Origin: an uncultured Chloroflexus sp.
Lineage (GTDB): Bacteria > Chloroflexota > Chloroflexia > Chloroflexales > Chloroflexaceae
Assembly: GCF_937129525.1 (NCBI RefSeq)
Contig: NZ_CAKZNK010000092.1
Location: 1-55,538, forward strand
DNA length: 55,538 nucleotides
Reading direction: 5' to 3'
The stretch's first letter is position 1. The number at the start of each line of letters is the position of its first letter. The notes beneath the pieces are model-generated. The model did not search any database, had not been told where the DNA came from, and saw only the letters and a list, made by a program, of their open reading frames with translations. A program made the translations under genes and the position numbers. Positions 10,319 to 33,243 of this stretch are shown here, piece by piece.

Positions 10319-10551
10319 GATCAACCTCCTTTGCAAAAAAAATAGATACCATTCGCATTGCCTGAATACAGTAAATGGAGGAGATCATAGAGGCGTTATA
10401 TTCAGACACGCACGATCTTATACGCAGATCTCACCGGAAAGTAGCGCGATAATTGTCCTGATTTATGAAATCAACAACATAACCTGTGTTTTTAACCAAA
10501 AAGTTACTTTCTAAAAGTTTGTGCTCACTATCACAACAACTGACGCATTCA

Positions 10552-10560
10552 TGCTATAAT
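10552..10560 (+). promoter_or_regulatory. Extended -10 promoter of acnA
   Basis: TG-C-TATAAT lies 60 nt before the acnA start, with no good -35 box; the TGN extension compensates. The intergenic region 10319-10620 must also hold the divergent promoter of the secreted protein gene, for which I see no clear consensus. Confidence 0.65.
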
Positions 10561-10620
10561 CGCACTACCACAAGATGGAAAGGCCTTCCGTTGCGGGAGT
10601 TCAACCGAAGGAGAAAAACG

Positions 10621-13362
10621 ATGGCTAACAGCTTTGGCGCTCGCTCGACGTTAACCGTCGGCGATCGCGTCTATGAAATCTACCGCCTTGACGCACTCAC
10701 TGCCCACGGCATCAATCTGACCCGTCTGCCCTACTCGCTCCGCATTCTGCTGGAAAATCTGCTCCGCCACGAAGATGGTCGCACCGTCACTGCCGATGAC
10801 ATCCTGGCGCTTGCCAACTGGCAGCCGCAAGCCGAACCCGAGCGGGAAGTGGCTTTTATGCCGGCGCGCGTGATTTTGCAAGATTTCACCGGCGTGCCAT
10901 GCGTGGTCGATCTGGCGGCCATGCGTGACGCTATGGCCGAGCTGGGTGGCGATCCGCGCCGGATCAATCCGTTGCAGCCGGTAGAATTGGTCATCGACCA
11001 CTCAGTGCAGGTTGATGCGTATGGCTCTGAAGCGGCGTTGTTGATCAACAAAGACCTTGAGTTCCAGCGCAATGTTGAGCGCTACGCTTTCTTGCGCTGG
11101 GGTCAGACGGCCTTTGACAACTTCAAAGTCGTGCCGCCGGGCAATGGCATCGTCCATCAGGTCAACCTTGAGTATCTGGCGCGCGTCGTCTTCACCAGCG
11201 ATGAGAATCCGCGCGCGCAGGGCGCAGTGCAGGCCTACCCCGATACTCTGGTCGGCACCGACTCGCACACCACGATGATCAACGGCCTTGGCGTGCTGGG
11301 TTGGGGTGTGGGCGGTATCGAAGCCGAAGCAGCCATGCTCGGTCAGCCCCTGTCAATGTTGATCCCACAGGTGGTTGGCTTCAAGCTGACCGGACGGCTG
11401 CGCGAGGGTGCAACCGCCACCGATCTGGTGTTGACCGTGACGCAGATGCTGCGCAAGCTTGGCGTGGTGGGCAAATTTGTCGAGTTCTTTGGCCCCGGCC
11501 TGGCCAACTTGCCGCTTGCCGACCGGGCAACCATTGCCAACATGGCGCCAGAGTATGGCGCAACCTGTGGTATCTTCCCGGTTGACGACGAGACGTTGCG
11601 CTATCTGCGCTTCTCTGGACGCAGCGAAGAACGGGTCGCGCTGGTCGAGGCGTATTTCAAGGAGCAGGGTCTCTTCCACGACGAACACACCCCTGAAGCC
11701 GAGTATTCAACGGTCATCGAGCTTGATCTGAGCGCGGTCGAGCCGAGCGTGGCCGGCCCCAAACGACCCGAAGGTCGGGTGCCGCTAACCGAGGTCAATC
11801 GCACCTTCCACATGGCCGTGCCGGCAATTGTCAACCCGAATCAGCCCGATACCGCGCTATCGGCAGCCGATTTTGCCGCTACCGCCGTGGAAGTTCCCGG
11901 CGCCAATTACAAACTGCACCATGGTTCGGTCGTTATTGCTGCTATCACCTCCTGCACCAATACGTCGAACCCGTCGGTGATGGTGGCCGCCGGCTTGCTG
12001 GCCAAGAAAGCGGTCGAAGCCGGCTTGACGGTCAAGCCATGGGTAAAGACATCGCTGGCGCCCGGTTCGAAAGTGGTGACCGAGTATTTGACCAACGCCG
12101 GCTTAATGCCCTACCTCGAGGCGCTGCGTTTCCACACCGTCGGTTACGGATGCACGACCTGCATCGGAAACTCCGGCCCGCTGGCGCCTGAAATCAGCCA
12201 GACGATCGAGCAGGCCGGATTGGTCGCCGTGTCGGTGTTGTCGGGCAATCGCAACTTTGAAGGGCGAGTGCAGCAGGACGTTAAAGCCAACTATTTGATG
12301 TCTCCGCCGCTAGTTGTGGCCTACGCCATTGCCGGTCGGATCGATATCGATCTGGATCGAGAGCCGCTAGGGATTGGCAAAGATGGCCAGCCGGTCTATC
12401 TGCGCGACATCTGGCCTTCACAGGCTGAGGTTCAGCAGACAATCGAGACGGCGATCCAGTCTGAGATGTACCGTCGCTCATACGCCAGCGTCTTTGTTGG
12501 CGATGAGCGCTGGGAGAACATTCCAGTGCCGGCTGGCGATCAGTTTGCCTGGGATCCGGCCAGCACCTACGTGCGCCGACCGCCCTACTTTGATCGGATG
12601 AGTCCAACTCCGCCAGAGCGAGTGGCCGAGATCCACGGCGCGCGGGTACTGGCCTTCCTCGGTGACAGCATCACCACTGATCACATCAGCCCTGCGGGCA
12701 GCATCAAGGTCAACTCACCCGCCGGCAAATATCTGATCGAGCATGGGGTCGCGCCAGCCGATTTCAACAGTTACGGCGCGCGGCGCGGCAACCACGAAGT
12801 CATGGTGCGCGGCACGTTTGCCAACATTCGCCTGCGCAACAAGCTGGCGCCGGGCACCGAAGGCGGTTTCACCACCTACCTGCCCACCGGCGAGGTAATG
12901 ACAATCTATGATGCCGCGATGCGCTATCAGGCCGATGGCACGCCACTGATCGTCATTGCCGGCAAAGAATACGGCAACGGCTCATCGCGAGACTGGGCCG
13001 CCAAAGGCCCCTACCTCCAGGGGGTCAAGGCAGTGATTGCCGAGAGTTTCGAGCGCATTCACCGCTCAAATCTGGTCGGCATGGGGATCGTGCCACTGCA
13101 ATTCATGCCCGGCGAGAGCGCAGCCAGCCTCGGCTTGACCGGCCACGAGGTATACGATGTGATCGGATTAGCCGATGCAATTGCCAGTGGCTTTGCTAAT
13201 GGCCGCATTCTGACCGTGCGGGCCACTGCCGCTGACGGCACTGCGCGCGAGTTCCAGACCCGCGCGCGGATTGATACGCCGCAAGAGATTGAATACTATC
13301 GCCACGGCGGTATCTTGCAGTACGTGTTACGCCAGTTGCTGGCCGAAGACAACGCTGCGTAG
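10621..13362 (+). CDS. acnA: Aconitate hydratase A
   Basis: A 913-aa aconitase of the AcnA/IRP1 type, interconverting citrate and isocitrate in the TCA cycle. The [4Fe-4S] cysteines are C445 (SCTNTSNP) and C511/C514 ([10 protein letters not shown]). Other family blocks are present: [33 protein letters not shown], and the swivel-domain stretch [13 protein letters not shown] with [17 protein letters not shown]. Length is normal. ATG 10621 has AAGGAG nearby; the open frame further upstream covers the promoter and is not translated. It is monocistronic between its own extended -10 promoter and a hairpin terminator. With gltA and sucAB elsewhere in the window it supplies an oxidative TCA cycle. 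It is the last housekeeping gene before the A+T-rich island. Confidence 0.97.
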
Positions 13363-13553: not shown

Positions 13554-13581
13554 TTGCTAAGTTTATTTTAATGTTTATAAT
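13554..13581 (+). promoter_or_regulatory. Promoter of the phosphorothioation-type island
   Basis: TTGCTA (13554-13559) and TATAAT (13576-13581) are 16 nt apart in a sharply A+T-rich patch (from about 13550) that contrasts with the GC-rich DNA before it. It lies 57 nt before the first island gene. No other good promoter was seen before 27.4 kb and the six genes are nearly gapless, so one transcript may cover the island. Confidence 0.6.
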
Positions 13582-13637
13582 ACGATATTGTCTCCATGCT
13601 CCTGTACAGTTTTTTGACTTTACATAATAGTGATTTT

Positions 13638-14552
13638 ATGACTCGATCTTTCATCTTTAGCGGCCACGAAACGTTCACCCTGCGAAGTAACTGGCTTAAA
13701 AAAGCCTTCGATCTACTGCGTACCTATGATGACCTTTTTAGCCGTGAAGATGCGTTCGTTCTGCTCGGCGTTGGCAAAAACATGGCGCAATCGATTCGGT
13801 TCTGGGGATTGGCAACCGGTCTCTTCGAGCGTGTCGATCGAGGCGAATTCCGCGCAACACAACTCGGTACCGACCTCTTAGCGGACGATGGATGGGATCC
13901 TTTCCTGGTAACTCCTACCGGGCGCTGGCTGATCCACTATCAGCTTGTGGCAAGGTCTAACTCGCCGTTTACGTGGTATTACACGTTCAATTTGCTTAAG
14001 CGAGGTGAATTTACTGGTCATTCGCTTCGCAATTCAATAATAGACTACGTTTCCCATCGTAGTAGTAAAATTGTTTCAGAGTCTACACTAGATCGTGATA
14101 TTGATTGCATGCTCCGGTGTTACATCCGACCAAATATTACCCGCGCTGGCGCTAGTCAGTCTGTAGAAGAAGTTTTGCATTGTCCACTCCATGATCTCGG
14201 TCTTCTTCAAGCGTTACCTGATCAACGCGGCTATCAACTGACAAGCGGTCTGCGCGCGGATGTGCCGGACGAGCTGGTGGTGCTGGCTGCGCGTAACCAG
14301 GCCATCTCACTTGGACGATCAACACTCTCTTTTAACGATTTGGCATACGGTGAAAAATCACCTGGACGAATCTTCCGCTTTGATGAAGATAGTCTACTGA
14401 GTCGCCTCTTCCGTTTTGAAGAGATGACGAATGGCCTGGCCGCTTACAGCGACAGTGGTGGTATTCGCCAGATTGTATGGCGTAATCTTGAGTTACTCGA
14501 TGAACGAACACTCCTTGTAGCCGCTTTTGATCGAGAAAAAGCGTATGTCTAA
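13638..14552 (+). CDS. DUF4007 family protein, first gene of Dnd-like island
   Basis: A 304-aa protein that I recognise as DUF4007 from its N-terminal block: FIFSGHETFTLRSNWLKKAF followed by EDAFVLLGVGKNMAQSIRFW. The predicted fold is mainly helical with winged-helix character (DNA binding is an inference). The family has no established biochemical role, but I recall members next to DndC-like PP-loop proteins in defence loci. ATG 13638 begins the conserved block; the frame is open to 13596 without an RBS. It overlaps the next gene by 8 nt. In this locus there is no DndB, DndD or DndE, so DUF4007 may take over target recognition or regulation (inference). Confidence 0.8.
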   Translation: MTRSFIFSGHETFTLRSNWLKKAFDLLRTYDDLFSREDAFVLLGVGKNMAQSIRFWGLATGLFERVDRGEFRATQLGTDLLADDGWDPFLVTPTGRWLIHYQLVARSNSPFTWYYTFNLLKRGEFTGHSLRNSIIDYVSHRSSKIVSESTLDRDIDCMLRCYIRPNITRAGASQSVEEVLHCPLHDLGLLQALPDQRGYQLTSGLRADVPDELVVLAARNQAISLGRSTLSFNDLAYGEKSPGRIFRFDEDSLLSRLFRFEEMTNGLAAYSDSGGIRQIVWRNLELLDERTLLVAAFDREKAYV

Positions 14553-17500
14553 ACTTATCTCTATTGCATCACGCTATACTCGTTCGGTGCATATTAGATA
14601 TGATTTTCATGATCTCCGTCATTATCCCAAGGGTTATCTAGTTACACCGCTTGTTCGGCAGACACTAGAACGCATTTTGCGAGGTTTGCATGCCGGGAGT
14701 CGAGATCGCGCATTTTCTGTGATCGGCCCCTTTGGTGCTGGTAAATCAGCGTTTGCGCTATTTTTAGCTCATTTCTTGCAGCGAAACCAGAAAAGGCGCC
14801 AGCAGATGCTGCACGATCTAGACACTGTGGTAGAAGATGCGTGGCTTACGGTGCCCTCGCTGCTTGCCGTTCTAACACCAGGTAATAACAGTTCGTTGCG
14901 ACGCGCTGTTGTGCAGTCGTTGCTGGATGCGCTGGAACGATCACGTTTGTCAACGCCAGAGATCAAACAATTCCGCCAGCATCTGACGGCATGTATCCAA
15001 AATGAGCCGCTTGATCCGGTCACTACTGCCGAGCTGGTAGCGGAGGCTGCGCGATTGTTGAAAAGTGAGGGCACGTATGCTGGCATTCTTCTCATCATTG
15101 ATGAGTTGGGTCAGTATCTCGATTATGCCGCTCATCACGACGACGAACGCGATCTCTTTGTTTTGCAGAGCCTCGCTGAAATGGCAGCTCGCAGTGGCGA
15201 TACGCCGGTGGTGGTGGTCACTATTTTGCATCAAGCTTTCGAGCATTACACAGCGTATGCAGGTAGCCGTCGCCGGCTCGAGTGGGCGAAGGTTCAGGGG
15301 CGTTTCATTGATCTAGCATTTCAGGAGCCACTCAGCCAGATGATCCGGATGGTGGCAGCCGCTTTACGACCCGCCGTTTCTGATCCGTTGAAAGCGCAGC
15401 GTGTTGCCTGGTCTGAGCGTATCTCGCCCATCACGGAAGAGCTGGGATTGCGACCAAACGAAATCGCTGCGGATGAATGGCGGCAAATTATTGCCGATAC
15501 GTTTCCGATTCATCCAATGACGCTGCTTGCTCTCCCCGGTATTATGCGTCAGCTTGCGCAAAATGAACGAACGCTTTTTTCCTTTCTTGCTTCTGATGAA
15601 CCCTGGGGTTTGCAAGATATATTGAATCAGGCCCAGCAAGGTAATTCCGTGCCAATCTATCGCCTGACGCATATGTTCGCCTATGTTGAAGCTAATCTTG
15701 GCGCAGGTCTTTTCACGCGCGCTCGTGGTCAGCGTTGGGCCGAGCTGGTGGAAGCGCGGGCAGAAATCGCTGTCACAGAAACCCATCTTCTTGATACCTT
15801 AACCGTTATTGGTGTGCTGAATGCGCTGGAGCGAGCTGCCGGTTTGCGTGCCTGTCAGGCACAAATTTCGTTTGCGCTCACCGATCATCTTGCTGATGAG
15901 CAGGTCACGTTGGCGCTGCGTGCTTTGCAGGATCGCAGACGCATTATTTATCGACGCTATCGTGATAGTTTTGTGCTCTGGGAAGGGAGTGATCTCGATC
16001 TTGAAGAACTTACTCTGTCAACTCGACGCAGATTGAGTGAGCAGTTATCCGTATGCCAGCTACTATCCCGTTATGCCGATACAACGCCACGCATTGCCCA
16101 TCGACACAGTTATCAGTCGGGAGCAACGCGCGTATTTGCGGTTCGCTACGTCGATCTCAATCAGTGTCGTGAAGGTCTATCGTCAATCCCAAACTATGAT
16201 GGTGAGATCCTGCACATTGTGCCAAATGATGAAGAAGAGTTAGCGCAAGCGGAACAGTGGGCAACCGATCCGGCGCGAATTGATGAAACGGCGCGGATCG
16301 TAGTTTTGCCGCAGCGCATCCACGAGTTACGTGATGTCACTCTTGAGGTGGCGGCACTGCGCGCGCTTTTGGAAGAGAGGGAAGAACTTGAACATGACCG
16401 GGTGGCGCGGCGTGAAGTGGCAAGTCGCCTACTTGAAGCAGAGCAGGTATTACAGGAAGCATTGAGAAGAGCATTCAACCCACAGAGCCGCTGGTTCTAT
16501 CGCGGCCAGTCGGTTGCGCTGACCAATGCTCGCCAGATTGATGAACTTCTATCACAGGCGGCTGACATCACCTACCGGTTGTCGCCTCGGATCTGGAATG
16601 AACTCATCGCGCGAGATACGATCTCATCAGCAGCAGCCAAAGCTCGCCGCAACCTGGTTGAAGCGCTTATTACCCGCTCTGATCAAGCGTTGCTTGGGAT
16701 TATAGGTTATCCTCCAGAGCGTGCTATCTATGCCAGCCTCTTCCAGCTCAGCGGGATACATCGTGAAACAACAGATGGCGCATGGGAAATCGGGCCGCCG
16801 CCATCTGAAGACCCGTTACAGCTTCGTCCGGCATGGAATGCGCTGGAAGAAAAGTTGCACAGCTCGGAAAACAATCCTCTACCGCTAACAGAACTGTATA
16901 CGTTTCTCCAACGACCACCTTACGGCGTCAAAGCTGGGATTATTCCTCTTCTCTTCGTCGCATTTTATGTCGCGCGAGCTGGAGAGGTGGTCTTCTACGA
17001 GCATGGTAACTACGTGCCTATTCCCGACATGGCGATGTTTGAACGCTTACTGGCGCGACCTGACTATTTTGCTGCGCGCCTTTGCCAGGCAAAGGGAGCG
17101 CGCCGTGCCGTGTATCAGCAGCTCGCTGCCACGTTTGCGCCGCAGGCATTGCAGCAACGAGTTCAACCTGCCCTGCTTGCGGTTGCAATGCCATTTCTCC
17201 GCGTTTACCACCGTTTGCCGTCGTACAGTAAACATACGAAGCAAATTAGCCAGCGCGCGCAAGCAATTCGGCAAGCGCTAGGCGACGCACGCGCACCCGA
17301 TGAATTGTTGTTTGAACTACTTCCACAGGCTTGCGCAATAGTGCCCTGGAAATCGACTGATACGATTGAGCAGGAGCAACTTCGTGACTTTATTAATCAG
17401 TTACAAGCAGGCTTGCAAGAGTTGCAAACGGTGTTTCTTAACCTCCGACGTGACATTATCAATAGCGTGATCACAGCGTTTGCCTTGCCGGACAATACGG

Positions 17501-17973
17501 CGCAAGCGCATCAGGCGTTGCTTCATCGTTATCAGCGTATAGCAGCGCTAACGAATGACCCACTTCTCCACTCTCTCGGCGCGCGATTGGAGACAGCTCA
17601 GCCTGATGGCGAGTCGTGGGCAATGAGTATCGCAGCGCTTGTTATGAAACGACCGCCAGAGCAATGGCAAGACGGCGATTTGCCCGTGTTCCGCGCAGCT
17701 ATAGCCGATCTGGCCCGCCGGTTTCGCGCAGTCGAAGCGTTGATACTTGCCGCAAGTCATCAGGCAGGAGAAGATAACCTTCTTCGCATTGCAATTACGA
17801 ACGGAAAGGGGGAAGTAAGTCGCGTTGTTCATCTCCGCGCCGATAATGAAACTCATCAGCTTCGTCGCGAGCTACGCGCGGTGCTGGAACGTTACCAGAC
17901 GCTCAACCTGGATCAACGCATTGGTTTGCTGGCTGAGATGCTGCAACATCTTGTAACCGATGAACATGCTTAA
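14545..17973 (+). CDS. Large P-loop ATPase of the Dnd-like island
   Basis: A 1142-aa ATPase. The Walker A motif GPFGAGKS is at residues 61-68 and the Walker B motif LLIIDELGQYLD has its acidic pair at D186-E187. The remaining 900 residues are helical, with a charged likely coiled-coil stretch around 600-650 (LEEREELEHDRVARREVASRL reduced here to its character), and no nuclease or methyltransferase motif I can see. Size and N-terminal ATPase with long helical tail recall the BrxC/PglY/DUF499 ATPases of BREX-type systems, but I cannot assign it to one. It starts at ATG 14545, overlapping DUF4007, rather than TTG 14527. Its position before the DndC-like gene suggests it powers or positions the DNA-modification step, perhaps in place of DndD (inference). 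Confidence 0.75.
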   Translation: MSKLISIASRYTRSVHIRYDFHDLRHYPKGYLVTPLVRQTLERILRGLHAGSRDRAFSVIGPFGAGKSAFALFLAHFLQRNQKRRQQMLHDLDTVVEDAWLTVPSLLAVLTPGNNSSLRRAVVQSLLDALERSRLSTPEIKQFRQHLTACIQNEPLDPVTTAELVAEAARLLKSEGTYAGILLIIDELGQYLDYAAHHDDERDLFVLQSLAEMAARSGDTPVVVVTILHQAFEHYTAYAGSRRRLEWAKVQGRFIDLAFQEPLSQMIRMVAAALRPAVSDPLKAQRVAWSERISPITEELGLRPNEIAADEWRQIIADTFPIHPMTLLALPGIMRQLAQNERTLFSFLASDEPWGLQDILNQAQQGNSVPIYRLTHMFAYVEANLGAGLFTRARGQRWAELVEARAEIAVTETHLLDTLTVIGVLNALERAAGLRACQAQISFALTDHLADEQVTLALRALQDRRRIIYRRYRDSFVLWEGSDLDLEELTLSTRRRLSEQLSVCQLLSRYADTTPRIAHRHSYQSGATRVFAVRYVDLNQCREGLSSIPNYDGEILHIVPNDEEELAQAEQWATDPARIDETARIVVLPQRIHELRDVTLEVAALRALLEEREELEHDRVARREVASRLLEAEQVLQEALRRAFNPQSRWFYRGQSVALTNARQIDELLSQAADITYRLSPRIWNELIARDTISSAAAKARRNLVEALITRSDQALLGIIGYPPERAIYASLFQLSGIHRETTDGAWEIGPPPSEDPLQLRPAWNALEEKLHSSENNPLPLTELYTFLQRPPYGVKAGIIPLLFVAFYVARAGEVVFYEHGNYVPIPDMAMFERLLARPDYFAARLCQAKGARRAVYQQLAATFAPQALQQRVQPALLAVAMPFLRVYHRLPSYSKHTKQISQRAQAIRQALGDARAPDELLFELLPQACAIVPWKSTDTIEQEQLRDFINQLQAGLQELQTVFLNLRRDIINSVITAFALPDNTAQAHQALLHRYQRIAALTNDPLLHSLGARLETAQPDGESWAMSIAALVMKRPPEQWQDGDLPVFRAAIADLARRFRAVEALILAASHQAGEDNLLRIAITNGKGEVSRVVHLRADNETHQLRRELRAVLERYQTLNLDQRIGLLAEMLQHLVTDEHA

Positions 17974-17987
17974 AAGAGGAGTTGCTG

Positions 17988-18821
17988 ATGGCAACCGAGA
18001 CTGACATCATTCGTGAGTGGGCAGCGCGTCCTGGTCGTCATATTGTGAATCTTAGCGGTGGCAAAGATAGCACTGCCCTTGCCATCTATCTCCATGACAA
18101 AATACCGCAGATTGAATATGTTTTCTGCGACACGCACAAAGAACTGCCAGAAACCTACGAATATCTGGATCGTCTGGAAGGATTTTTGCAGCGTCCTATC
18201 ATTCGCCTCAATGCCCAGCGCGGATTTGACCATTGGCTTGATATGTATGGCGGGATGCTACCTTCCGCGCAGGTTCGCTGGTGTACTCGCAAACTGAAGA
18301 TCGAACCATTTGAAGCATTCATCGGCGATGATCTGGTCTGGAGCTATATCGGTATTCGGGCAGATGAAGGTCGAAGCGGGTACATTTCAACGAAACCTAA
18401 TGTGCGTCCGGTCTATCCATTCAAAGAATTGGGCATGACGATTGCCGACATTGAGCGTATCCTCGAAATGAGCGGCTTAGGATTGCCGGCATACTACTCC
18501 TGGCGCCAACGGAGCGGCTGCTTTTTCTGCTTCTTTCAGCGAACCGGAGAATGGATAGGCTTGAAAGAGCATCATCCCAATCTGTTTGAGCAGGCGAAGG
18601 CGTATGAGACGGAACGAGGCGGGGAACATTTCTACTGGCGTCAGCGCGAAAGTTTGGCTGAACTGGAACGTCCTGAACGCATTGCGCAGATCAAGCGCGA
18701 ACACGCTATGCGGCTGGAAACAGAGCGCAAAAAACGCCCTAACCGACCGCTGATCGAATTGGTTGGAGCGGCTCTCGATGCCGAAGATGACGAGGTTGGA
18801 TGCGATATTTGCCATCTGTGA
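17988..18821 (+). CDS. Short DndC-like PP-loop (PAPS reductase family) protein
   Basis: A 277-aa member of the PAPS-reductase/DndC superfamily. The PP-loop SGGKDST is at 23-29. C99 (RWCTRKLK) with C178 and C181 (SGCFFCF) match the Fe-S cysteine pattern of DndC/BrxP-type enzymes, and a further C272/C275 pair (GCDIC) closes the protein. DndC activates the DNA backbone with ATP so that sulfur can replace a non-bridging oxygen; canonical DndC is much longer (about 500 aa from memory), so this is a compact version closer in size to CysH or BREX-4 BrxP. ATG 17988 has AAGAGGAG upstream. Residues before dptF are separated by only 9 nt. A cysteine desulfurase (DndA/IscS) is not encoded nearby and must come from elsewhere. 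Confidence 0.82.
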   Translation: MATETDIIREWAARPGRHIVNLSGGKDSTALAIYLHDKIPQIEYVFCDTHKELPETYEYLDRLEGFLQRPIIRLNAQRGFDHWLDMYGGMLPSAQVRWCTRKLKIEPFEAFIGDDLVWSYIGIRADEGRSGYISTKPNVRPVYPFKELGMTIADIERILEMSGLGLPAYYSWRQRSGCFFCFFQRTGEWIGLKEHHPNLFEQAKAYETERGGEHFYWRQRESLAELERPERIAQIKREHAMRLETERKKRPNRPLIELVGAALDAEDDEVGCDICHL

Positions 18822-18830
18822 GGTGGTGGC

Positions 18831-20591
18831 ATGGCACGTGTGCAAAATCCATTCGTTGATTATCTCAACCGATACACGACCGCTTCGCCAAACCATGAAG
18901 CCGCTTTCGATGAGTATATTGCGGCAGCGCAACCACCTGCTGCCGGCCCTCTCCGGTTGCAAACCAAAATTGAGCGATTCTTACTCGAAGTATATAACAA
19001 AGACCGACCACCCTCTGTAATTCTGACCGGTAATGCCGGTGATGGCAAAACCTATTTATGTCGCCAGGTATTGCGGACGTTTGGTTCTCCGCAGGTGTCA
19101 GATTTGTTGTGGGAAAGTCTTGTTGATCGTCCGATTGAGCGCAATGGAACGCGCTTGTTCGTTGTCAAAGATCTCTCAGAATTGAGTGAAGAAAAGGGGA
19201 AGGAGATTCTTGATCGTTTGGGTGAGGGATTAAATAATCCGGCAAATCCTAATCGATATCTCATTGCCGCAAACGAAGGTAGACTGCGGCAATTGCTTTC
19301 AGGTTTGCCCCATCGAGGAGAGTTATCTCAAACGATCAATCATCAGCTCGAAAATGGCGCGGAAATTACCAACGAATCCTTGATTGTAATCAACCTAAAT
19401 CGCGTCGCAACCTCAACATTTGTGCCAGAAACGTTGCGTTGGATGACTGATCCGCGTCACTGGCACGACTGTCAGCAGTGTCACGCGCGAGATAAATGCC
19501 CGATTCGGTACAATGCTGAGCAATTAGCCAATAACGAGATTGTTAGTCGGGTGCAAACTCTGTATCAGCTCTTGGAAGCTATTGGCGAACATCTAACTGT
19601 TCGTGACATGCTGATCCATTTCGCATACACCATCAGTGGCGGCCAAACATGCAGAAAAATCCAGCAGGCAGGAAGTGATTTGTCACAGTTTGTCTACTAC
19701 GAAAATATCTTTGGACGAGCTGATGATGAAGGGTTTCGCCGCAAGTCACATCTTACCCAACTCCTGGCCCGGCTGCAGATCGGTCAACATTCCAGCTTTG
19801 AAATTGACGAATTTATTTTGAGTGGAGGGAAAACATCTGACGAGACGTTTATCCATCAGAAGTTGTTTGGCGAGACAATCGATGTAAACTTTAAGCAGTT
19901 TAATCAAGACCGACGCGCATATCTCGAAGGAAGTGATAATTCGCGAGCGCAAGACGCGCTCAAGTGGCTACCGCATTGCCGACGTAAAATCTTTTTTACT
20001 GGATCGATCCATCACTATTACCGACTCTTACCGTTTCGGTTCTTTCAAGAATACCACCAGCTCTACAGATCGTCTGGAGAGAGAATAGACGAACAAACAT
20101 TACGCTTGTTTGTTAAGGGCTTAAATCGGGCTTTTTCGCGACTATATCTCCACGAAGATCAGCACCTGTATATAACCGCACAATATTTACATAGTGTTAA
20201 TCAGCCACATCCGTTAGTGTTATTTAGGATACCAATTGACAATATTCGCCTGTTTTTTGACGAGACTGCTGCTGATTACATTGATGTCACTCGATACACA
20301 CTCTGTTTAGATATTTCACCTCCGCGTACATCACAAAATCAGGAACCGCTCAAATGGCGATTGGGGATCTTGCAGTTTGAGTACATTATGCGATTAGCCG
20401 TCGGAGGAAACTTCGCAATTCTTGCCACGGAATGCGAGCTTGACATTCGACGGTTGAAGGATGAACTGATCAAACGGTTTGCGCCTACCACGTTGGATCA
20501 ACATGTGGTCGAGTTCTTCATGCCTGCTCGCAGCAGGTATGAACTGCGCAGGTTGCGAATTAATGAACACCGGAAAATTGTCGCTGAGTAA
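18831..20591 (+). CDS. dptF: DptF, phosphorothioation-dependent restriction ATPase
   Basis: A 586-aa P-loop protein with Walker A GNAGDGKT at residues 67-74 and a C-x2-C-x5-C cluster (C214, C217, C223) that may bind zinc. N-terminal layout, length and position match DptF (DndF), one of three proteins that restrict DNA lacking phosphorothioate marks in Dnd systems. ATG 18831 follows GAGGTGG at a good distance and lies 9 nt after the DndC-like gene. The next two genes fit DptG and DptH. Assignment is from remembered family features plus gene order. Confidence 0.78.
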   Translation: MARVQNPFVDYLNRYTTASPNHEAAFDEYIAAAQPPAAGPLRLQTKIERFLLEVYNKDRPPSVILTGNAGDGKTYLCRQVLRTFGSPQVSDLLWESLVDRPIERNGTRLFVVKDLSELSEEKGKEILDRLGEGLNNPANPNRYLIAANEGRLRQLLSGLPHRGELSQTINHQLENGAEITNESLIVINLNRVATSTFVPETLRWMTDPRHWHDCQQCHARDKCPIRYNAEQLANNEIVSRVQTLYQLLEAIGEHLTVRDMLIHFAYTISGGQTCRKIQQAGSDLSQFVYYENIFGRADDEGFRRKSHLTQLLARLQIGQHSSFEIDEFILSGGKTSDETFIHQKLFGETIDVNFKQFNQDRRAYLEGSDNSRAQDALKWLPHCRRKIFFTGSIHHYYRLLPFRFFQEYHQLYRSSGERIDEQTLRLFVKGLNRAFSRLYLHEDQHLYITAQYLHSVNQPHPLVLFRIPIDNIRLFFDETAADYIDVTRYTLCLDISPPRTSQNQEPLKWRLGILQFEYIMRLAVGGNFAILATECELDIRRLKDELIKRFAPTTLDQHVVEFFMPARSRYELRRLRINEHRKIVAE

Positions 20592-20610
20592 CTCAAGGAA
20601 AGTAAGAGCT

Positions 20611-22248
20611 ATGAATGTCTACGGTCAGTTTCAGAGGGATGAAAAATACCCGCTTGAGGCGCTTATTTGGGGGCATCGCCTGCGTGATAATCAGCACTGG
20701 ATTGAATATTTGCTCGAATTTCTCAGCGTGTTAGTTGGATACGACTACAGTTTTGGTCGAGGTACACAGCCGCACCAAAAATATCGAATTCCCAAGAGAT
20801 TGGGATTGCGTAGATTTATTTTCTATGACAAGTACGAGAAGACACAGGATAGCCGAGATGATCGCGCTGTCAAAATGCTCAGAGAGGCTTTAGTAAATAA
20901 GGTTGAGCAAAACAAATATGATGCTGAAGCAACATTACAGCAGATCCAGGTGTTATTGCGATCATTTGCGGTTATTGAGGATAACCGGTCTTGGTATGCA
21001 AAAAGTCTATTTCCTGCTCACGAAAATTTGCTGCTCTGGGAAGCGTTACGCAAGAGATCAACGAAAGATACATACCGGGGGCCTGTTGACCATTTTTCTG
21101 CTGATGATCTGGACGAAAGTATCGAGTTTAATGCCCGTAACTTCTTTGCGCGGGGAGGTGAACTCTACTACTTGATCATTTCTGCTGGCACGGAACACGA
21201 CTCTGAGCGACGTGAGCGCATTGCGCGTAGCCTGTGGCGGTTACTCACCGAGCAAAATCAGTCTCTCGGTGAACTGGCCAGCCTGATTGATCAAACTTGG
21301 CAGGAACAAAAACAGTCACCTGACAATGATGCTCAGGGTTCGCCTGGCTGGATACCTGATCCTGATTGCAAACTGTATCAACAGTTTGCCGAAGATCTCG
21401 ATATTTTGCTTGATAATAGTCTGGATGCTCTTGAAAGCCTGGAATTACTTGCGCATCTCATTTGCTTTCACGTTATTCTCTACATTTACCATCGCGCTCA
21501 TCCTCAACATGATCCGAGTCTCTGCCAAACTGGCAAGTGCCTTGATGTCTGTCGTCCTGAGTTGCTGATTGATATTCCCGGCGATGAAGAAAGTCAGAAG
21601 GTTCGCTCACTTTCAGCTAATCAACTGCGTTTGCATGAACAGTGGCAGGTTGAACGTGTCAGACGCTATATCAAAGCAAAGGTGGAAGCGATAGCTAAAC
21701 AGACTCCTCCCGATCAATTTCTCGATCAGATTAGAGCGGAAGTTGATCGCTACTTAGGGGGAATTCGCAGGAAGGGGCGAGAACAATTTGAAAAAAATAT
21801 GCAATCCTTCGAGCCGAAGGTTCTGGCAGGTTATACAGCGCACATGCTCGATCAGGTAGTTGAATCGCTTGATGAAGTCATGGGTAGGAACTTTCGCGAT
21901 CACTTCGTCAGCGTTCATCGTCGTCTTGGCCGATCAATCGGTCTGATTGCGCCATTGCGAGGGCCGCAACCTCGTTTCGTACTCGGTGATAATTTGCTTA
22001 AGACGCTTACAATGACTGTTATTCCTGCCGGTAAAACCATGACGTTTGGCCAGTTCCTTGAAACGCTTTACGCGCGTTACGGGATCATCATTGGTCCAGG
22101 CGAGGCGCGCAAAGCACAATTTTTTAAGCGGAGCCGGACAAATGAGGGAGTCTTTGCTCGAAATCGAGATCGGTTTTTGTTGCGCATGAAACTTGCCGGG
22201 TTGTTGACCCAATACTCTGATGCCACGGCTATGGTTCATCGACCATAA
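20611..22248 (+). CDS. dptG: Probable DptG, restriction component
   Basis: A 545-aa protein between dptF and dptH, the standard place of dptG. I do not see a catalytic motif. Features are a tyrosine/arginine-rich N-terminal block (GYDYSFGRGTQPHQKYRIPKR), long helical stretches and a cysteine cluster C305-x4-C310-x3-C314 preceded by two histidines (HPQHD), possibly metal or Fe-S binding. ATG 20611 has AAGGAAAG upstream; the frame opens 132 nt earlier inside dptF, but that part is out-of-frame shadow sequence. The protein is somewhat longer than the DptG I remember, so the name rests mainly on synteny. Confidence 0.6.
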   Translation: MNVYGQFQRDEKYPLEALIWGHRLRDNQHWIEYLLEFLSVLVGYDYSFGRGTQPHQKYRIPKRLGLRRFIFYDKYEKTQDSRDDRAVKMLREALVNKVEQNKYDAEATLQQIQVLLRSFAVIEDNRSWYAKSLFPAHENLLLWEALRKRSTKDTYRGPVDHFSADDLDESIEFNARNFFARGGELYYLIISAGTEHDSERRERIARSLWRLLTEQNQSLGELASLIDQTWQEQKQSPDNDAQGSPGWIPDPDCKLYQQFAEDLDILLDNSLDALESLELLAHLICFHVILYIYHRAHPQHDPSLCQTGKCLDVCRPELLIDIPGDEESQKVRSLSANQLRLHEQWQVERVRRYIKAKVEAIAKQTPPDQFLDQIRAEVDRYLGGIRRKGREQFEKNMQSFEPKVLAGYTAHMLDQVVESLDEVMGRNFRDHFVSVHRRLGRSIGLIAPLRGPQPRFVLGDNLLKTLTMTVIPAGKTMTFGQFLETLYARYGIIIGPGEARKAQFFKRSRTNEGVFARNRDRFLLRMKLAGLLTQYSDATAMVHRP

Positions 22249-22265
22249 CATCAATGGGGGCCACA

Positions 22266-25200
22266 ATGAAACCAGAAACCGATCAAATTATTGCTCGAGC
22301 TGTTATTCGTTGCATTAATACGATCCAATCATCTAATCAAACAGGTCGTTTATTTATTCGTCTCGAGGATTTCAGTGCGTTGGTGTATCGACAGATCCTC
22401 CAATTTATTAAACGTTATCCAAACATCATTGCGCGCACTATCGAGCCTATTCCGGGCTTTGAGAGCTTTGCAATCGAAGATGGTCGATCGGCTACCTGGT
22501 ATCGCAATCATTTAGAGTCTGGCAAGACGTTGTTATTGATCTTTAATCGACGAACTAGCGATGCGCAGAGTCTCAAAGACATCTATACCATTAATAATGC
22601 GACATTGATTCGAGAGCAACTTGAGGATTTAATTGAGGCAAGTATTCAACATTACCAGTATAATGAGGTTGAAAAGGAGATACTTGTCGCTTTTGTTGGT
22701 AAAACTCTTAAAACGATTGGAGTAGAACCGCAACTTCATGATTTGGTTGGGTTTTTTGTTGAAATAGATCTTCTCTTAAGTGATAATAATGACATTGAAA
22801 CTGCGATTGCTATTTCGCTTCCGCATCTAGGTCTTTTCCGTTGTCGTAGATTGGCGAAATCTTTGTTCGATCACCGCAGTCGAAGCCTGCTGCGAGAGAT
22901 ATACCGCGCAGCGCGTATTGGGCTGGAAATTATAGATGAAAACCAGCAAGAAAAGTTGTTGGATAACCTTGCTGCCGCTGAATTCAGTAATGAAAGTGAA
23001 GTAAAAGGTTTGTCTGGCGCAGAGAAAAGGCAATTACTTCGCGATTTTATCAATGGCGCATTGGCCAATCAACCCGAACAGCTCAAACGTGTTCTTGAAA
23101 TAGACTGGGAAGAGGTACAGCAAATCATAAAACCTCGCCGACGCGCGGCCACGAAGGAGCAAGTTATTCAAGAATTGCGGGAGGTAAATCAAGAATTATC
23201 GTCACCTATCGAAGAGATAGATATGTTGATTGATGCGATAGAGCGAGATGTTGATCCTGGAACACCACTTATTGAGGCGGTCTTGCAAGTAGTGCATGCA
23301 CAACTATCACCTGAAGTGCGCGCTGCTCTGCGTCGTTTGATGCGTCCCCGTGACACTAAAAATGCCGATTTTCTTTACGGCTTGATGACCTTACTGGTTG
23401 AGATGTATCACCTCTATGGGCAAGACCGATCCGCCAAATTGCGAGTGTCAGTACAGTTTAAGCCAACGGATAAACGATCAAAGAAGACAAGTCTATTCGA
23501 AGCAGCGCGCGCTTTTCAGTGCGTGTATGGTGGCATTGAGCAGTTTATGCCGACAATTCACTGGGATCTAGATCAGTTGTGGAAGATAGTAGCGGATAGA
23601 CAGGCCATCGAAGATGAGGAAGATGCGGAGGAGCAGGAGCGTAAAGTACATCTTCAGTTTAGTGTTACGCTCGAACCGATGGATCGTCAAGCCCGCCCTC
23701 TTGCCAAAGCAGATCTTTACTGGGAATACCGGGCTGATAGTCCAGTTGCAGCAACCGCCCTGGCACTTGAGAGTGAATTATCTCAAACTCAACAGACTCT
23801 GTTAGGTCCCATATTTGATACGGGGTTGACCGCGCTACGCATTCCGGTCTACTCTTCCTACCAAAATATCGACAAGATCGATGATCTTGACTTGTATCAG
23901 CCATTCCGAACACTCGGACGATGGTTTCAGAATGCTGGCAACCTGCGAGATATGCTGCAGGATATCTGTCGTGAAAAAGGTGTGCGAAAGGACATTGTCG
24001 ATCCGATTCTGGAATCTCTATCCAAATTAGAGCAGGCATGGGCAGCTTTCATTCACGCAGCGCAAAGCGGCCTTTTCAATGAGAGGGTTGCATTACTGCT
24101 AGAGCAATACAAGGAATTTCTCCACACCGCTCTATCAAGTCTCACAAAAAGCCAGTATTTGCCGCTATACCGCATTATCAACCGCGCCTGGATGATAAGT
24201 CCATCTTCGCCTGACTCTTGGGTAGTCATGCCATTGATTCACCCTCTCAAGCTGGCCTGGTGGCACAATCGCGCGCGCGCATTCAATAATTTGGTTATGC
24301 GTATGTTCGGCAGTGATGAAGCGGAGCATGTGCATGTAATAGATCACAAGATCTTGCAACGTGAAATTGGCGCTGCCTACAGCTCGCATCATATCCCTCC
24401 GGCGCTTAGTGTCGCAGACAGAGGTCTACAGGGGCAATGGTTCACGGCTTATGAGGAAGTGCAGGGATACGAACTGTTCCGACTATATATTGATCCATCA
24501 GAAATGGCTGGCTTTAATATTGCCGAATTAGCTGAAGATGAACAAGATATAGCGCAAAGTCAGGCAGTAAATGTCCTGGTCAGTGTTGTGCAAGATTATC
24601 TAGCGACATATCCATTTGCGCGCGACGGTCTAACAATCGTTTTTCTCGAGTGCAAACACTCTGCGCTACCGATCATGATGCTGGAGAAGCTTGATCAAAT
24701 CAGCAGAAAAGCTCCTTTACTACAACAGCTTCATGTTACTGTTCATACTTCTCGGCATGGCGCGACTATTTATCGGCGAATTGATCAGTGGTTAAATGGG
24801 GAAATGGCGCGAACAGAGCGTGAAGGAGCCGGATACTTACCGAGAATCACCGTAGATGTGATTGAATGCTCATTGCAAGACGTGATTCGCCAAGTAGCAC
24901 CGGCAGATCTTGTTTTATTGGTCGACTTTTTTACCCACAATAGTCGGCGCTTGAAAGCGAAACTTGAACAATATCAGGAAGAAACTCAAGAAAGTATCAT
25001 TCATGCTCATCAGATCAAGCCTGAACCATTTGAAGAAGGAGAAGCTTTCCGCCGCCTTCGCTTAACATCGACGGCAAAACCGGATATTCTGCGACTGTTT
25101 TTGTTGTGCCAATACGCCGGTACGCTGTCCGCAGGTGAAAAACTACCAACTGTCGATCAAAATATTAATCTCTATTCTGATCTGTCACTGGAACGATGGC

Positions 25201-27422
25201 AGGACCTGATCGAACAACTTCACAATCACTTCAACTGGGTAGTTTGTTACGATGAGACAATCGATCGCTTCTTGTTACGAGCAGCCGCTCAGGACAAGAT
25301 ACAGGTTATTCGTTACGCGCTAGGCTTAGGGGTGCAACGCTTGCACCATTTGACAATCTCGTCTGCCGGTCGCGCGCAGGAAATAGTCGAACAACGACTG
25401 GCCTCTCGGCTCGAACAGATGTTGCCGACCTTTTCTCGCGATCAATGCCGGCAAATTGCCGGCCATCTGGCGAATAGAGCAAATCAGGTCTCCGGCGACA
25501 TTGTATTGCGCGCGGCTGGTCCAGGGGTGTTTCTGAACGAATTGATCGGGTTAGTAGCGGCAATCTTTGAGACAGAACAGGTCTTTCGTCAGCAGTATCC
25601 TGATGGTTTGCCGGTTTGGATTCTGCTTGACGATTTTAAGCATTGGTTCAACCAGGAGAAAGTGCCAGACTTGCTCTTCATAGGTCTCAGACAAGATGAC
25701 AACCAACTGAATGTAACACTTCAAATTATCGAAGCAAAATGTGTTAATGTTGATGCTGTAGAACCAGAGGCGCGCGATGCCAGGTTGCAGGTGCGAAGTG
25801 GTATCAGTAAGTTAGTGAGAGCCTTTGCGCCGGGTGGTTCTCATCTTGACGCGCCATACTGGTATGATCAGCTTTACCGGGCGATTGCCGGTAATGTGAG
25901 CCTCACCGATCGTACACGGGCGCTTTGGGAAGGGATTTGCGACGATTTGTACGCAGGCAATTTCGCGCTTAATGCCAGTGGTCATAGTATGGTCTTCTGC
26001 TATGATGGCCAGGCCGGTATTGTGAACGGGCCGGAGGTAAAGGAGTTCCCTGAAAGGTTTGCTGAAACGCCTGAGGTGCCGCTTTACGAACACCGCTACG
26101 GTCGTAAGGAATTGGTGACCGTGCTGCGTAACTTGATCCAGCAGACAAGCAGTATTGATGAGAAGCGAACGTTTGATTGGAACATGGATGATGGAGACAA
26201 AAAGGATCCTCTACCAACTACTGATCCCCTTTCCCCTCCACCCAATACATTGCCTGAACCGAGGCTCGTAGCTTCTTCCAATGATAACGAATCTTCAGAA
26301 GATAAAGAAATCCCTGGCCCACTTCCACCGGTTGATCCAGCCTGGCTGCAACAAAAAGCTGCTGAGATCGAATATGCCTTGCGTATTCGGAACTTCCAGT
26401 TTTACCCGATCAATATTGCTGATGCTGACCAGGGGCCGAGTATTATTCGGTTTAAGTTCAGACCAAAGCCTAATCAGCAGCTAAGTAAGATTCAGGCGCA
26501 AGCTCAAGATTTGGCTCGTGAATTGAGGCTAAAGTATCCTCCTTTTATCGATAACGTACCAGGAACCCATTTTATCGGAATTGATATTCCCCGCGAACCA
26601 CGTGCTACTGTATATCTGCGTCCGCTTCTAGATCGATTACCTGAACCAGGACCTGCAGAATTGCCAGTTATTGTTGGCATGTCACCCGATGGGAGGCTTA
26701 TCACTGAAGATTTGTCCGAATTTCCTCATCTTCTCGTCGCTGGGGCTACCAATTCGGGGAAATCAGTTTTTCTACGCAATTTATTGCTAAGCCTGCTATC
26801 TGTTTACCAGCCGGGTCAGCTAGAATTATTAATTATTGATCCAAAACAAACTGATTTTATCATTTTCGATCAGATTCCCCATTTACGTGGCGGCAAGGTT
26901 ATCGTTGACATAAACTCTGCTCGCAAGGCACTGTTGGATCTTGCCCGTAGCGAGATGCCTCGGCGACAGCGGATCATTGCCAATCGGAGCATGAAGATCA
27001 AAACGTTTAATCAGCGCTACCCAGATGAGGCGTTGCCGCCAATTGTTGCAATTATTGACGAGTATGCTTTACTGAAGAACCAAATGGATCGAAAAGAACA
27101 GGAGATATTTGAGCAACAACTCAGCATCTTAGCCGCTGCAGCTCGCTCTGTAGGCATTCATCTGGTAGTAGCAACACAGCGCCCCAGTGCCGATGTGCTT
27201 ACCTCAACAATCAAAGCCAATTTAGACGTGCGTGTAGCGCTACGGGTGGCTTCCATTGTCGATTCACGAGTCGTGCTTGATGCGCAGGGTGCCGAGAATC
27301 TGCTTGGCTATGGTGACATGCTCTTCCGCGGTTCTGATGGTAGGATAGTGCGTTTGCAAGCGCCATATATCGATGAGGACGAAATCAGTGAATGGCTGAA
27401 GGATCGGTTTGGCGAACGATAA
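22266..27422 (+). CDS. dptH: DptH, FtsK/HerA-type restriction motor
   Basis: A 1718-aa protein. The C-terminal 260 residues are a clear FtsK/SpoIIIE-HerA motor: Walker A GATNSGKS at about 1492-1499, LLIIDPKQTDF, Walker B VAIIDEYALL, and the distal VVATQRPSADVLTSTIKANL sensor region. A proline-rich, acidic linker (about 1300-1360) separates it from a large N-terminal region without known motifs, helical and leucine-rich. Size, architecture and being last of three genes match DptH (DndH), the motor needed for restriction by Dnd systems. ATG 22266 follows a G-rich RBS; an in-frame ATG at 22254 is possible. Its last 38 bp overlap the convergent methyltransferase gene, which marks the right edge of the island. 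Confidence 0.85.
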   Translation: MKPETDQIIARAVIRCINTIQSSNQTGRLFIRLEDFSALVYRQILQFIKRYPNIIARTIEPIPGFESFAIEDGRSATWYRNHLESGKTLLLIFNRRTSDAQSLKDIYTINNATLIREQLEDLIEASIQHYQYNEVEKEILVAFVGKTLKTIGVEPQLHDLVGFFVEIDLLLSDNNDIETAIAISLPHLGLFRCRRLAKSLFDHRSRSLLREIYRAARIGLEIIDENQQEKLLDNLAAAEFSNESEVKGLSGAEKRQLLRDFINGALANQPEQLKRVLEIDWEEVQQIIKPRRRAATKEQVIQELREVNQELSSPIEEIDMLIDAIERDVDPGTPLIEAVLQVVHAQLSPEVRAALRRLMRPRDTKNADFLYGLMTLLVEMYHLYGQDRSAKLRVSVQFKPTDKRSKKTSLFEAARAFQCVYGGIEQFMPTIHWDLDQLWKIVADRQAIEDEEDAEEQERKVHLQFSVTLEPMDRQARPLAKADLYWEYRADSPVAATALALESELSQTQQTLLGPIFDTGLTALRIPVYSSYQNIDKIDDLDLYQPFRTLGRWFQNAGNLRDMLQDICREKGVRKDIVDPILESLSKLEQAWAAFIHAAQSGLFNERVALLLEQYKEFLHTALSSLTKSQYLPLYRIINRAWMISPSSPDSWVVMPLIHPLKLAWWHNRARAFNNLVMRMFGSDEAEHVHVIDHKILQREIGAAYSSHHIPPALSVADRGLQGQWFTAYEEVQGYELFRLYIDPSEMAGFNIAELAEDEQDIAQSQAVNVLVSVVQDYLATYPFARDGLTIVFLECKHSALPIMMLEKLDQISRKAPLLQQLHVTVHTSRHGATIYRRIDQWLNGEMARTEREGAGYLPRITVDVIECSLQDVIRQVAPADLVLLVDFFTHNSRRLKAKLEQYQEETQESIIHAHQIKPEPFEEGEAFRRLRLTSTAKPDILRLFLLCQYAGTLSAGEKLPTVDQNINLYSDLSLERWQDLIEQLHNHFNWVVCYDETIDRFLLRAAAQDKIQVIRYALGLGVQRLHHLTISSAGRAQEIVEQRLASRLEQMLPTFSRDQCRQIAGHLANRANQVSGDIVLRAAGPGVFLNELIGLVAAIFETEQVFRQQYPDGLPVWILLDDFKHWFNQEKVPDLLFIGLRQDDNQLNVTLQIIEAKCVNVDAVEPEARDARLQVRSGISKLVRAFAPGGSHLDAPYWYDQLYRAIAGNVSLTDRTRALWEGICDDLYAGNFALNASGHSMVFCYDGQAGIVNGPEVKEFPERFAETPEVPLYEHRYGRKELVTVLRNLIQQTSSIDEKRTFDWNMDDGDKKDPLPTTDPLSPPPNTLPEPRLVASSNDNESSEDKEIPGPLPPVDPAWLQQKAAEIEYALRIRNFQFYPINIADADQGPSIIRFKFRPKPNQQLSKIQAQAQDLARELRLKYPPFIDNVPGTHFIGIDIPREPRATVYLRPLLDRLPEPGPAELPVIVGMSPDGRLITEDLSEFPHLLVAGATNSGKSVFLRNLLLSLLSVYQPGQLELLIIDPKQTDFIIFDQIPHLRGGKVIVDINSARKALLDLARSEMPRRQRIIANRSMKIKTFNQRYPDEALPPIVAIIDEYALLKNQMDRKEQEIFEQQLSILAAAARSVGIHLVVATQRPSADVLTSTIKANLDVRVALRVASIVDSRVVLDAQGAENLLGYGDMLFRGSDGRIVRLQAPYIDEDEISEWLKDRFGER

Positions 27423-28050
27423 TCCTCTCCAACCCACTCACGCGATCCAGCGCGCCCTTCTCTGCCACGAGATTAAACCAGCGAATGCCGGGTCGTTGCG
27501 GGTCAGGTGTCTCTTCGGTAAACAACACGCGCAGACCGCTCGATTCGAGCAGGAGGGTAAGGCGGGCAGGTGGTAGCCAGGTGTAGAGCCGGCCATCGAG
27601 GGCGCGTTCACCCTCCGGCGGAGGTGTGCGATACGAGATGATCAGTCGTCCTGCCGGGCGCATGATCCGGGCCAGGTTGATCGTTGCGCTGATCAGTGCT
27701 GCTGCCGGTATGTGCATCAACACGGCGATGCAGAGCACGTTGTCGAAGCTGGCATCGGCAATTCCCGCCAGTTCGGGCAGTGCCGCTGCGCGCACTTCGA
27801 TGCCGGGGTAGGCGGCGCGAGCCTCGGCGATCATCCCGGTTGATGGCTCGAACCCTACGGTTGGGAAGCCGCGCTGGTTCAACCACGCAACATCGCGTCC
27901 GCTGCCGCTGCCCACATCCGCTGTGGGTTTGCCCGGGTGAAAGAAGGTGTCAACCAGGCGATAGATCGCATCGGGGTGCAGGCTTCGTTGGAACGCTGCC
28001 TGCTGGCGGGCCAGCTCGTCATATGTTCGGATCGTTTGTGGATCGGCCAT
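27385..28050 (-). CDS. Class I SAM-dependent methyltransferase
   Basis: A 221-aa Rossmann-fold methyltransferase. Motif I is TADVGSGSGRDVAWLNQ (about 40-56), followed by an acidic VGFEPS motif II and the post-motifs DNVLCIAVLMHI and IMRPAGRLIISYR. The substrate is unknown; the type is a small-molecule methyltransferase rather than a DNA methylase (no DPPY/NPPF). The base composition is GC-rich like the chromosome, unlike the island it touches. It ends 38 bp inside dptH on the other strand, so its last dozen residues (IIVRQTDPSAIH) may have been reshaped when the island inserted (inference). Confidence 0.82.
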   Translation of the reverse strand: MADPQTIRTYDELARQQAAFQRSLHPDAIYRLVDTFFHPGKPTADVGSGSGRDVAWLNQRGFPTVGFEPSTGMIAEARAAYPGIEVRAAALPELAGIADASFDNVLCIAVLMHIPAAALISATINLARIMRPAGRLIISYRTPPPEGERALDGRLYTWLPPARLTLLLESSGLRVLFTEETPDPQRPGIRWFNLVAEKGALDRVSGLERIIVRQTDPSAIH

Positions 28051-32999: not shown

Positions 33000-33243
33000 G
33001 CGTCACCAGAGAGAAATGCTTCCAACCGGTGGGGAAGATCTACCTGAGCGGTGATGAACGGCGTCAAAATTTTGCAAAATTGTTACCAAATTCGCGCTCC
33101 AAAAATGGTACGATAAGCCTCGCAACTGACTGACGTTTGCTTCTCCACAGGCGATCTTGCGATCGGTGTATGGCATATGGTCGCTGACTCAGAGATGCGA
33201 CTTCGGCAGATTCGCGTGGATCCGAAAGTGTTTGGAGCGTGGT

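Follow-up and report, generated by a model that had tools for sequence, protein, structure and literature searches.

Which defence system do the six adjoining genes at 13638-27422 of this Chloroflexus DNA encode? The window, the whole stretch of 55,538 nucleotides analysed here, comes from an uncultured Chloroflexus sp., and the operon is carried by contig 92 of its 4.48-Mb genome. A sequence-only reading of the window had described a phosphorothioation-type island that feeds a classical DptFGH effector. Our profile searches revealed that all six proteins match the PADLOC Ssp profiles B, C, D, F, G, and H in gene order, and the six genes very likely constitute an SspBCD-SspFGH phosphorothioate restriction system. 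The system itself is already known from Vibrio, where SspBCD-SspFGH was demonstrated experimentally in Vibrio anguillarum FF-93 in 2021 (PMC8092258; this and the other papers are cited from excerpts of their texts), and the Chloroflexus genome holds a complete copy apart from sspA.

Identity of the six genes

The gene identities, domain order, conserved catalytic set, and remote homology reported here are read from sequence. SspB matched the PADLOC SspB profile (268.6 bits, expectation value (E) 1.6e-80), the DUF4007 family PF13182 (E 5.7e-69), and the solved SspB structures 6juf/6lb9 (E 5.5e-32). SspC scored 1128.8 bits (E 0) with the PADLOC SspC profile and 578.8 bits with the best BrxC model; in its alignment, G64, G66, K67, and S68 were present in 15/16 sequences and D186 and E187 in all 16. 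SspD matched both its PADLOC profile (377.7 bits, E 1e-113) and PF01507 (E 5.6e-11). It carries the motif SGGKDS and the pairs C180xxC183 and C274xxC277 (numbering of the 279-aa open reading frame, ORF), each of the four cysteines occurring in 20/20 sequences. The BrxP model also matched SspD (E 4.7e-9), the DndC models did so only distantly, and PptA was found for it in the solved-structure sequence search (E 7e-4). The earlier descriptions of a DUF4007 protein, a 1142-aa BrxC/PglY-like ATPase, and a short PP-loop protein that resembles DndC and has clustered cysteines thus hold.

The three downstream proteins were likewise recognized by their own profiles: SspF with 772.9 bits (E 4.8e-233) and a Walker A motif, TGNAGDGKT, at residues 66-74, SspG with 182.5 bits (E 4e-54), and SspH with 1628.2 bits (E 0). 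Searches of solved structures by sequence returned no match for SspC or SspG, and a match of SspF to CYP51 (E 0.07) was rejected as chance-like.

The cluster resembles the SspABCD-SspFGH system of V. anguillarum FF-93 in that sspBCD adjoins sspFGH, SspF has a Walker A motif, SspH has an FtsK/SpoIIIE-like C-terminus, and the desulfurase can be an IscS encoded elsewhere. It differs in its host, a member of Chloroflexota, and in being without sspA, and the likeness was established through PADLOC profiles rather than through the FF-93 proteins.

Relationship of SspFGH to DndFGH and MADS

We used hhalign to compare SspF, SspG, and SspH (residues 1-1330) with their DptF, DptG, and DptH counterparts in seven loci from the plasmid collection (L103-L109); six of these loci have annotated dptF and dptG genes and three (L105-L107) an annotated dptH, the neighbouring large gene being used elsewhere, and L109 is unannotated. 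The pairs SspF-DptF, SspG-DptG, and SspH-DptH reached probabilities of 97.6, 71.3, and 93.7 with scores of 103, 47.9, and 78.3, respectively, whereas the six off-diagonal pairs remained at a probability of 0.2 or lower. In the controls, the best of 60 column shuffles scored 20.1, 24.6, and 22.8, reversed profiles scored 20.7, 15.8, and 29.8, and SspB, SspC, and SspD scored at most 24.6 against the Dpt proteins. The N-terminal ~600 residues of SspH fall outside the DptH match.

A second comparison was made with MAD6, MAD7, and MAD8 of the methylation-associated defence system (MADS), by using four loci (L091, L092, L093, and L094); MAD7 lies above the NCBIfam cut-off in L091, L093, and L094, and L092 is outside that sample. 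SspF matched MAD6 with a probability of 100 over 458 columns, SspG matched MAD7 with 98.4 over 329, and SspH matched MAD8 with 98.8 over 644; the six off-diagonal pairs were at 0.9 or lower. The corresponding values for DptF-MAD6, DptG-MAD7, and DptH-MAD8 were 99.2, 36.5, and 99.2. In L092, the H protein is closer to the PADLOC DndH models than to mad8, and neither of the two proteins encoded upstream of it has a PADLOC match at E 1e-10. Because L092 was doubtful, the comparison was repeated without it (F, G, and H: Ssp-MAD 100, 98.0, and 98.6; Dpt-MAD 99.2, 20.4, and 99.0) and with L094 alone (Ssp-MAD 99.6, 95.7, and 94.6; Dpt-MAD 96.3, 0.7, and 96.3). The links of F and H and that of SspG with MAD7 held in both repeats, whereas that of DptG with MAD7 did not. 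In single-profile searches against the four loci, both SspF and DptF matched MAD6 in 4/4, SspG matched MAD7 in 4/4 and DptG in 0/4, and SspH matched MAD8 in 2/4 and DptH in 4/4.

Two observations were made on these loci in passing. L091-L094 are MAD6-MAD7-MAD8-like trios in Chloroflexota, in which the MAD6-like protein joins an SspF-like C-terminal part to a kinase/PglW-like N-terminus. L092 seems to stand between MADS and DndFGH.

The effectors also correspond in layout. DndFGH (DptFGH) has three genes in the same order, encoding a P-loop subunit, a DndG-like subunit, and a subunit with a PD-(D/E)XK domain and an FtsK/HerA-type motor; unlike SspFGH, which the Dpt family models do not recover, DndFGH pairs with DndBCDE double-strand phosphorothioation. 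SspH has FtsK-alpha and FtsK domains, and some DndH proteins have FtsK-alpha too (PMC10853773). MADS shares the gene order, the profile matches, and an ExK nuclease motif in MAD8. It differs in the extra N-terminal kinase/PglW-like part of MAD6 (~700 residues), and what precedes the trio in L094 is not sspBCD but a methyltransferase gene and a specificity gene.

For SspG, structural models were considered as well. The plasmid DptG used in the comparison is close to the solved DndG 7exx (E 4.4e-115). Among solved structures, 7exx was also the one that best fitted the SspG model (Z 13.3 across 351 residues; the next entry had Z 7.1 across 76 residues). Foldseek likewise ranked 7exx first, with an E of 0.067 that is not significant alone and a next value of 0.8. 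Several points weigh against a shared origin of this subunit. The AlphaFold2 model is poor (mean predicted local distance difference test score, pLDDT, 56.3 with three sequences) and mostly helical, its root-mean-square deviation from DndG is 7.8, and, by the tool's own warning, Z 14 has been reached even by helical models that have no relatives; SspG-DptG (71.3) and DptG-MAD7 (36.5, 20.4, and 0.7) are, moreover, weak sequence links. Since helical models can score such Z values without relatives, we place weight on the gap to the next entry and on the match being the expected protein. The C-terminus of the model looks winged-helix-like, and SspG may be a DndG-like DNA-binding subunit.

From these profiles we infer that SspFGH, DndFGH, and MAD6-7-8 descend from a common ancestor. 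We favour, with reservations, the broader reading that they represent one ancestral translocation-coupled PD-(D/E)XK restriction machine of three subunits, which would have changed partners among marking modules for double-strand phosphorothioation, single-strand phosphorothioation, and methylation, with SspH as the nuclease and diverged parts of F and G reading the mark. Support for this reading is good for F and H; in the case of G, it comes from SspG-MAD7, the moderate SspG-DptG score, and the structure match.

Parts of this relationship have been touched on previously. The excerpts of PMC8092258 report no sequence homology between SspFGH and DndFGH and note the Walker A and FtsK parallels, whereas a review calls sspFGH homologs of dndFGH in passing (PMC12707154), so common ancestry with Dnd has already been asserted. 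DndH was analysed as a restriction endonuclease (REase) plus HerA/FtsK protein in PMC10853773, a paper in which the words SspF and SspH do not occur. Among the literature matches listed, judged mostly by title or abstract start and including few subscription journals, an SspH nuclease or a MADS-Ssp link was not named, and neither a profile test with controls nor the MADS bridge nor the nuclease residues of SspH turned up. Should the effectors of Ssp, Dnd, and MADS be a single machine, what is found for one, such as DndFGH, would predict the behaviour of the other two, and the exchange of marking modules would turn into an evolutionary rule open to testing.

A predicted nuclease domain in SspH

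Ahead of its FtsK motor, SspH contains a conserved set of residues of the PD-(D/E)XK type (Table 1). In aligned SspH sequences from four phyla, E1096, D1139, E1160, and Q1179 were present in 23/23 and K1162 in 22/23. In profile alignments, D1139, E1160, K1162, and Q1179 coincide with D, E, K, and Q in both DptH and MAD8, and E1096 coincides with E in DptH; the ExK motif, aligned with that of SspH, occurs in 7/7 DptH and 4/4 MAD8 sequences. An AlphaFold2 model of residues 1020-1330 (five sequences; predicted template modelling score 0.76, pLDDT 73.5) places E1096 on a helix before the sheet, D1139 at a strand start, E1160 together with K1162 on the strand after it, and Q1179 on the helix that comes next. 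The alpha-beta topology was judged against the textbook PD-(D/E)XK fold. Given this conserved set in front of the motor, SspH is probably the cutting subunit of SspFGH.

The evidence from structure comparison is less favourable, and some of the sequence evidence also speaks against a cutting SspH. Foldseek gave no match of the model at E <=0.001, its top rows being McrBC and Hachiman HamAB complex chains, and the best VIA-align Z was 7.8, which is middling by the tool's own note. In SspH of the same-genus relative L080, Q replaces the nuclease Lys (ESQ for ExK), and this protein is possibly inactive or altered; the position of E1096 holds S or G in MAD8. VIA-align returned 17 rows above Z 5, of which 15 are entries that we take to be PD-(D/E)XK nucleases or their complexes (HamA, PaqCI, McrBC, MspJI, N.BspD6I, Can2, and FokI); the other two, 9a5m and 9wuf, are not known to be such nucleases, and the fold lists for both the SspH and SspG models also hold unrelated entries. 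The motif was derived from the alignment alone, and a Pfam scan of the SspH middle region (23 sequences, each alone, E up to 1) identified no PD-(D/E)XK family. The nuclease prediction is carried by the sequence pattern, not by Z. A PIN_3 match in one middle region (E 0.14) was at chance level and was set aside.

SspBCD-SspFGH could be the right identification and the PD-(D/E)XK-like domain of SspH nevertheless structural, with another subunit or host nucleases cutting the DNA. The Q in place of K1162 in L080 and the middling structural support would suit this explanation, as would a structural picture from which SspG, SspF, and the N-terminus of SspH are for the most part missing. We nonetheless consider it unlikely, as E, D, E, and Q are invariant in the 23 sequences across four phyla, and DptH and MAD8 share the aligned ExK. 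In addition, the DndFGH complex is a translocation-coupled nickase (PMC11662687), and an REase domain has been assigned to DndH (PMC10853773). In the excerpts of PMC8092258, DNA damage is seen and no nuclease domain is named. With SspH as the probable cutting subunit, E1160/K1162 are now a direct mutational target; the operon is ordinary as a system and useful as a lead.

Sulfur supply and proposed working

No sspA is present in the cluster, and the same has been described for other genomes (PMC8092258). The same genome encodes SufS (C46), which scored 603.4 bits against a cut-off of 475.1, and a NifS/IscS-like desulfurase (C155), which scored 521.4 bits, just below the NifS cut-off of 530.75. 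Either protein may serve the Ssp system; that the desulfurase is encoded outside the cluster counts against the identification as a working Ssp system. DUF262 had a single match in the genome, in a 259-aa frame, and no search was made with the profile of SspE itself.

In the Vibrio system, SspBCD together with IscS marks one strand at 5'-C(PS)CA-3', and SspFGH, which damages DNA lacking this mark, is toxic in the absence of marking (PMC8092258); the DndFGH counterpart is a 2:2:1 complex with translocation-coupled nicking, the ATPase of which is repressed by the mark (PMC11662687). We infer all of the biochemistry in the Chloroflexus host, including the SspFGH complex and the mark with its motif. 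In the working that we propose, a cellular NifS/IscS-like cysteine desulfurase would pass sulfur to SspD, sspA being absent, and SspB would nick or select the site with the SspC ATPase. SspF, SspG, and SspH would then form a complex that attacks DNA without the mark, in which SspH would be a PD-(D/E)XK nuclease driven along DNA by its own FtsK motor and SspF a gating ATPase.

The mark might instead be mainly regulatory or redox-protective, with a silent or weak effector, and sspBCD without sspFGH or sspE is indeed the commonest arrangement (2,211/2,678; PMC8092258). This is distinctly improbable for an operon in which all six frames are intact and adjacent, the more so as unrestrained SspFGH is toxic in the Vibrio system (PMC8092258).

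Dpt and BREX membership

The sequence-only reading had named the last three proteins DptF, DptG, and DptH. However, neither the DptF/G/H models TIGR03236/7/8 nor the PADLOC Dnd models matched SspF, SspG, or SspH at E 0.1, although five DptF/G/H proteins from two plasmid loci, used as positive controls, did match the NCBIfam models (the two control DptH proteins with E 1e-37 and 2e-73, below the curated cut-off of that model). A failure against these profiles was among the outcomes that, by that reading's own account, would refute it. A search of the genome for the DptH family, the DptF and DptG families not being searched there, returned nothing, and across 151 genomes of the phylum the DptH family had one weak match. 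A classical DptFGH (DndFGH) with an unusual modification module is therefore very improbable, and as family membership it is refuted: the three subunits are remotely homologous and the gene order is identical, but the Ssp profiles match SspF, SspG, and SspH at E 4e-54 or better. The observation that DndB, DndD, and DndE are missing was borne out, none of them having a match among the six proteins beside the distant DndC-model matches of SspD. What remains of the earlier account is the phosphorothioation-type island itself, in which a DUF4007 protein, a BrxC/PglY-like ATPase, and a DndC-like protein would supply an effector of three genes, and, in place of membership in DptFGH, a remote homology visible in hhalign, the MADS bridge, and the SspG model.

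BREX (bacteriophage exclusion) type 4, which has homologues of SspB, SspC, and SspD and among whose components PglZ and BrxL are named (PMC12839542), or the Dnd/BREX-4 hybrid proposed earlier, is hardly credible despite the BrxC-model match of SspC and the BrxP-model match of SspD: PglZ and BrxL had no match among the six Chloroflexus proteins, to which the search for them was confined, the score of the SspC model is double that of the best BrxC model, the companion genes are sspFGH, and the six proteins match the described Ssp system.

Operon layout, distribution, and surroundings

The earlier description of six nearly gapless same-strand genes was confirmed, the successive gaps being -8, 14, 9, 19, and 5 bp, and a putative promoter precedes them (Table 1). 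A sigma-70-like consensus scan of a 401-bp region on both strands returned 2 sites against a shuffle mean of 0.4.

Table 1. Coordinates of the ssp operon, the SspH domains, and the neighbouring genes in the window
Feature	Position	Strand	Basis or remark
Sigma-70-like promoter (predicted)	13554..13581	+	TTGCTA, 16 nt, TATAAT; 10/12 consensus positions
sspB, 304 aa, DUF4007; putative DNA-nicking/recognition subunit of the phosphorothioate-modification module	13638..14552	+	PF13182, PADLOC SspB, solved SspB
sspC, 1142 aa, BrxC/PglY-like P-loop ATPase	14545..17973	+	PADLOC SspC
sspD, 277 aa, PP-loop ATP pyrophosphatase/PAPS-reductase fold; putative sulfur transfer	17988..18821	+	PADLOC SspD, PF01507
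sspF, 586 aa, effector subunit with a P-loop ATPase	18831..20591	+	PADLOC SspF, Walker A
sspG, 545 aa, DndG-like subunit	20611..22248	+	PADLOC SspG, AlphaFold2 model
sspH, 1722 aa, nuclease-translocase subunit (predicted)	22254..27422	+	PADLOC SspH
PD-(D/E)XK-type nuclease domain of SspH, ~residues 1040-1280 (predicted)	25371..26093	+	Alignment, AlphaFold2 topology
SspH codons	E1096 at 25539, D1139 at 25668, E1160 at 25731, K1162 at 25737, Q1179 at 25788	+	
FtsK alpha domain of SspH, residues 1363-1446	26340..26591	+	PF17854, E 2.3e-10
FtsK/SpoIIIE motor domain of SspH, residues 1470-1645	26661..27188	+	PF01580, E 1.1e-33; solved FtsK, E 3.6e-59
Aconitase (acnA), upstream neighbour	10486-13362		
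S-adenosylmethionine-dependent methyltransferase, downstream neighbour	27385-28050		Convergent; overlaps sspH by 38 bp

The guanine-plus-cytosine content of the island is 48.6%, compared with 57.4% and 59.1% in the window flanks, the only sequence with which it was compared, and the operon was probably acquired horizontally by Chloroflexus. The arrangement B-C-D-F-G-H recurs in four further genomes of the order, namely C. islandicus (L010), L080, L082, and L084. In C. islandicus, the end of the operon is likewise marked by this methyltransferase gene (74% identity), whereas in the same-genus genome G006 the operon and the methyltransferase gene lie ~128 kb apart. To look for an empty insertion site, we inspected stretches from three relatives that have no SspF (L095, L096, and L097); the methyltransferase is present in these stretches but acnA lies outside them, so no such site could be demonstrated.

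SspF was matched at E <=1e-10 in 28/400 Chloroflexota genomes, as an SspF-sized match or piece in 13 of the 28 and as a long frame or at a contig edge in 15. Four long proteins, two from these 15 and two that are second copies in other genomes, were examined and proved to be MAD6-like with an SspF-like C-terminus. SspF relatives occur in 39 plasmid records. In each of the 23 distinct further loci that have F, G, and H, these genes lie on one strand and in that order; in L066, G and H are separated by two small annotated genes. The counts exclude L081 (a duplicate of L010) and L087 (a duplicate of L070), as well as four proteins of MAD6 length and three fragments shorter than 500 aa among the F sequences, the short SspG of L086, and the two pieces of the split SspH of L067. 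L067, where SspH is split into two frames, and L086 are possibly decaying ssp copies.

Elsewhere in the window, a HepT-like RNase gene overlaps a nucleotidyltransferase (Polbeta) frame at 6996-7803 on the minus strand and looks like a HepT-MNT toxin-antitoxin pair, and at 8192-10336 on the same strand lies a gene for a 714-aa protein with DUF6345, a domain of unknown function. Two plus-strand genes encode proteins of 1241 aa (33157-36882) and 1000 aa (49240-52242) that had no Pfam match at E 1e-3 and E 1e-4, respectively. Between them, at 41940-46774 on the plus strand, lies a cluster that encodes a Ser/Thr kinase with a beta-propeller, a PP2C phosphatase, and VWA and FHA proteins.

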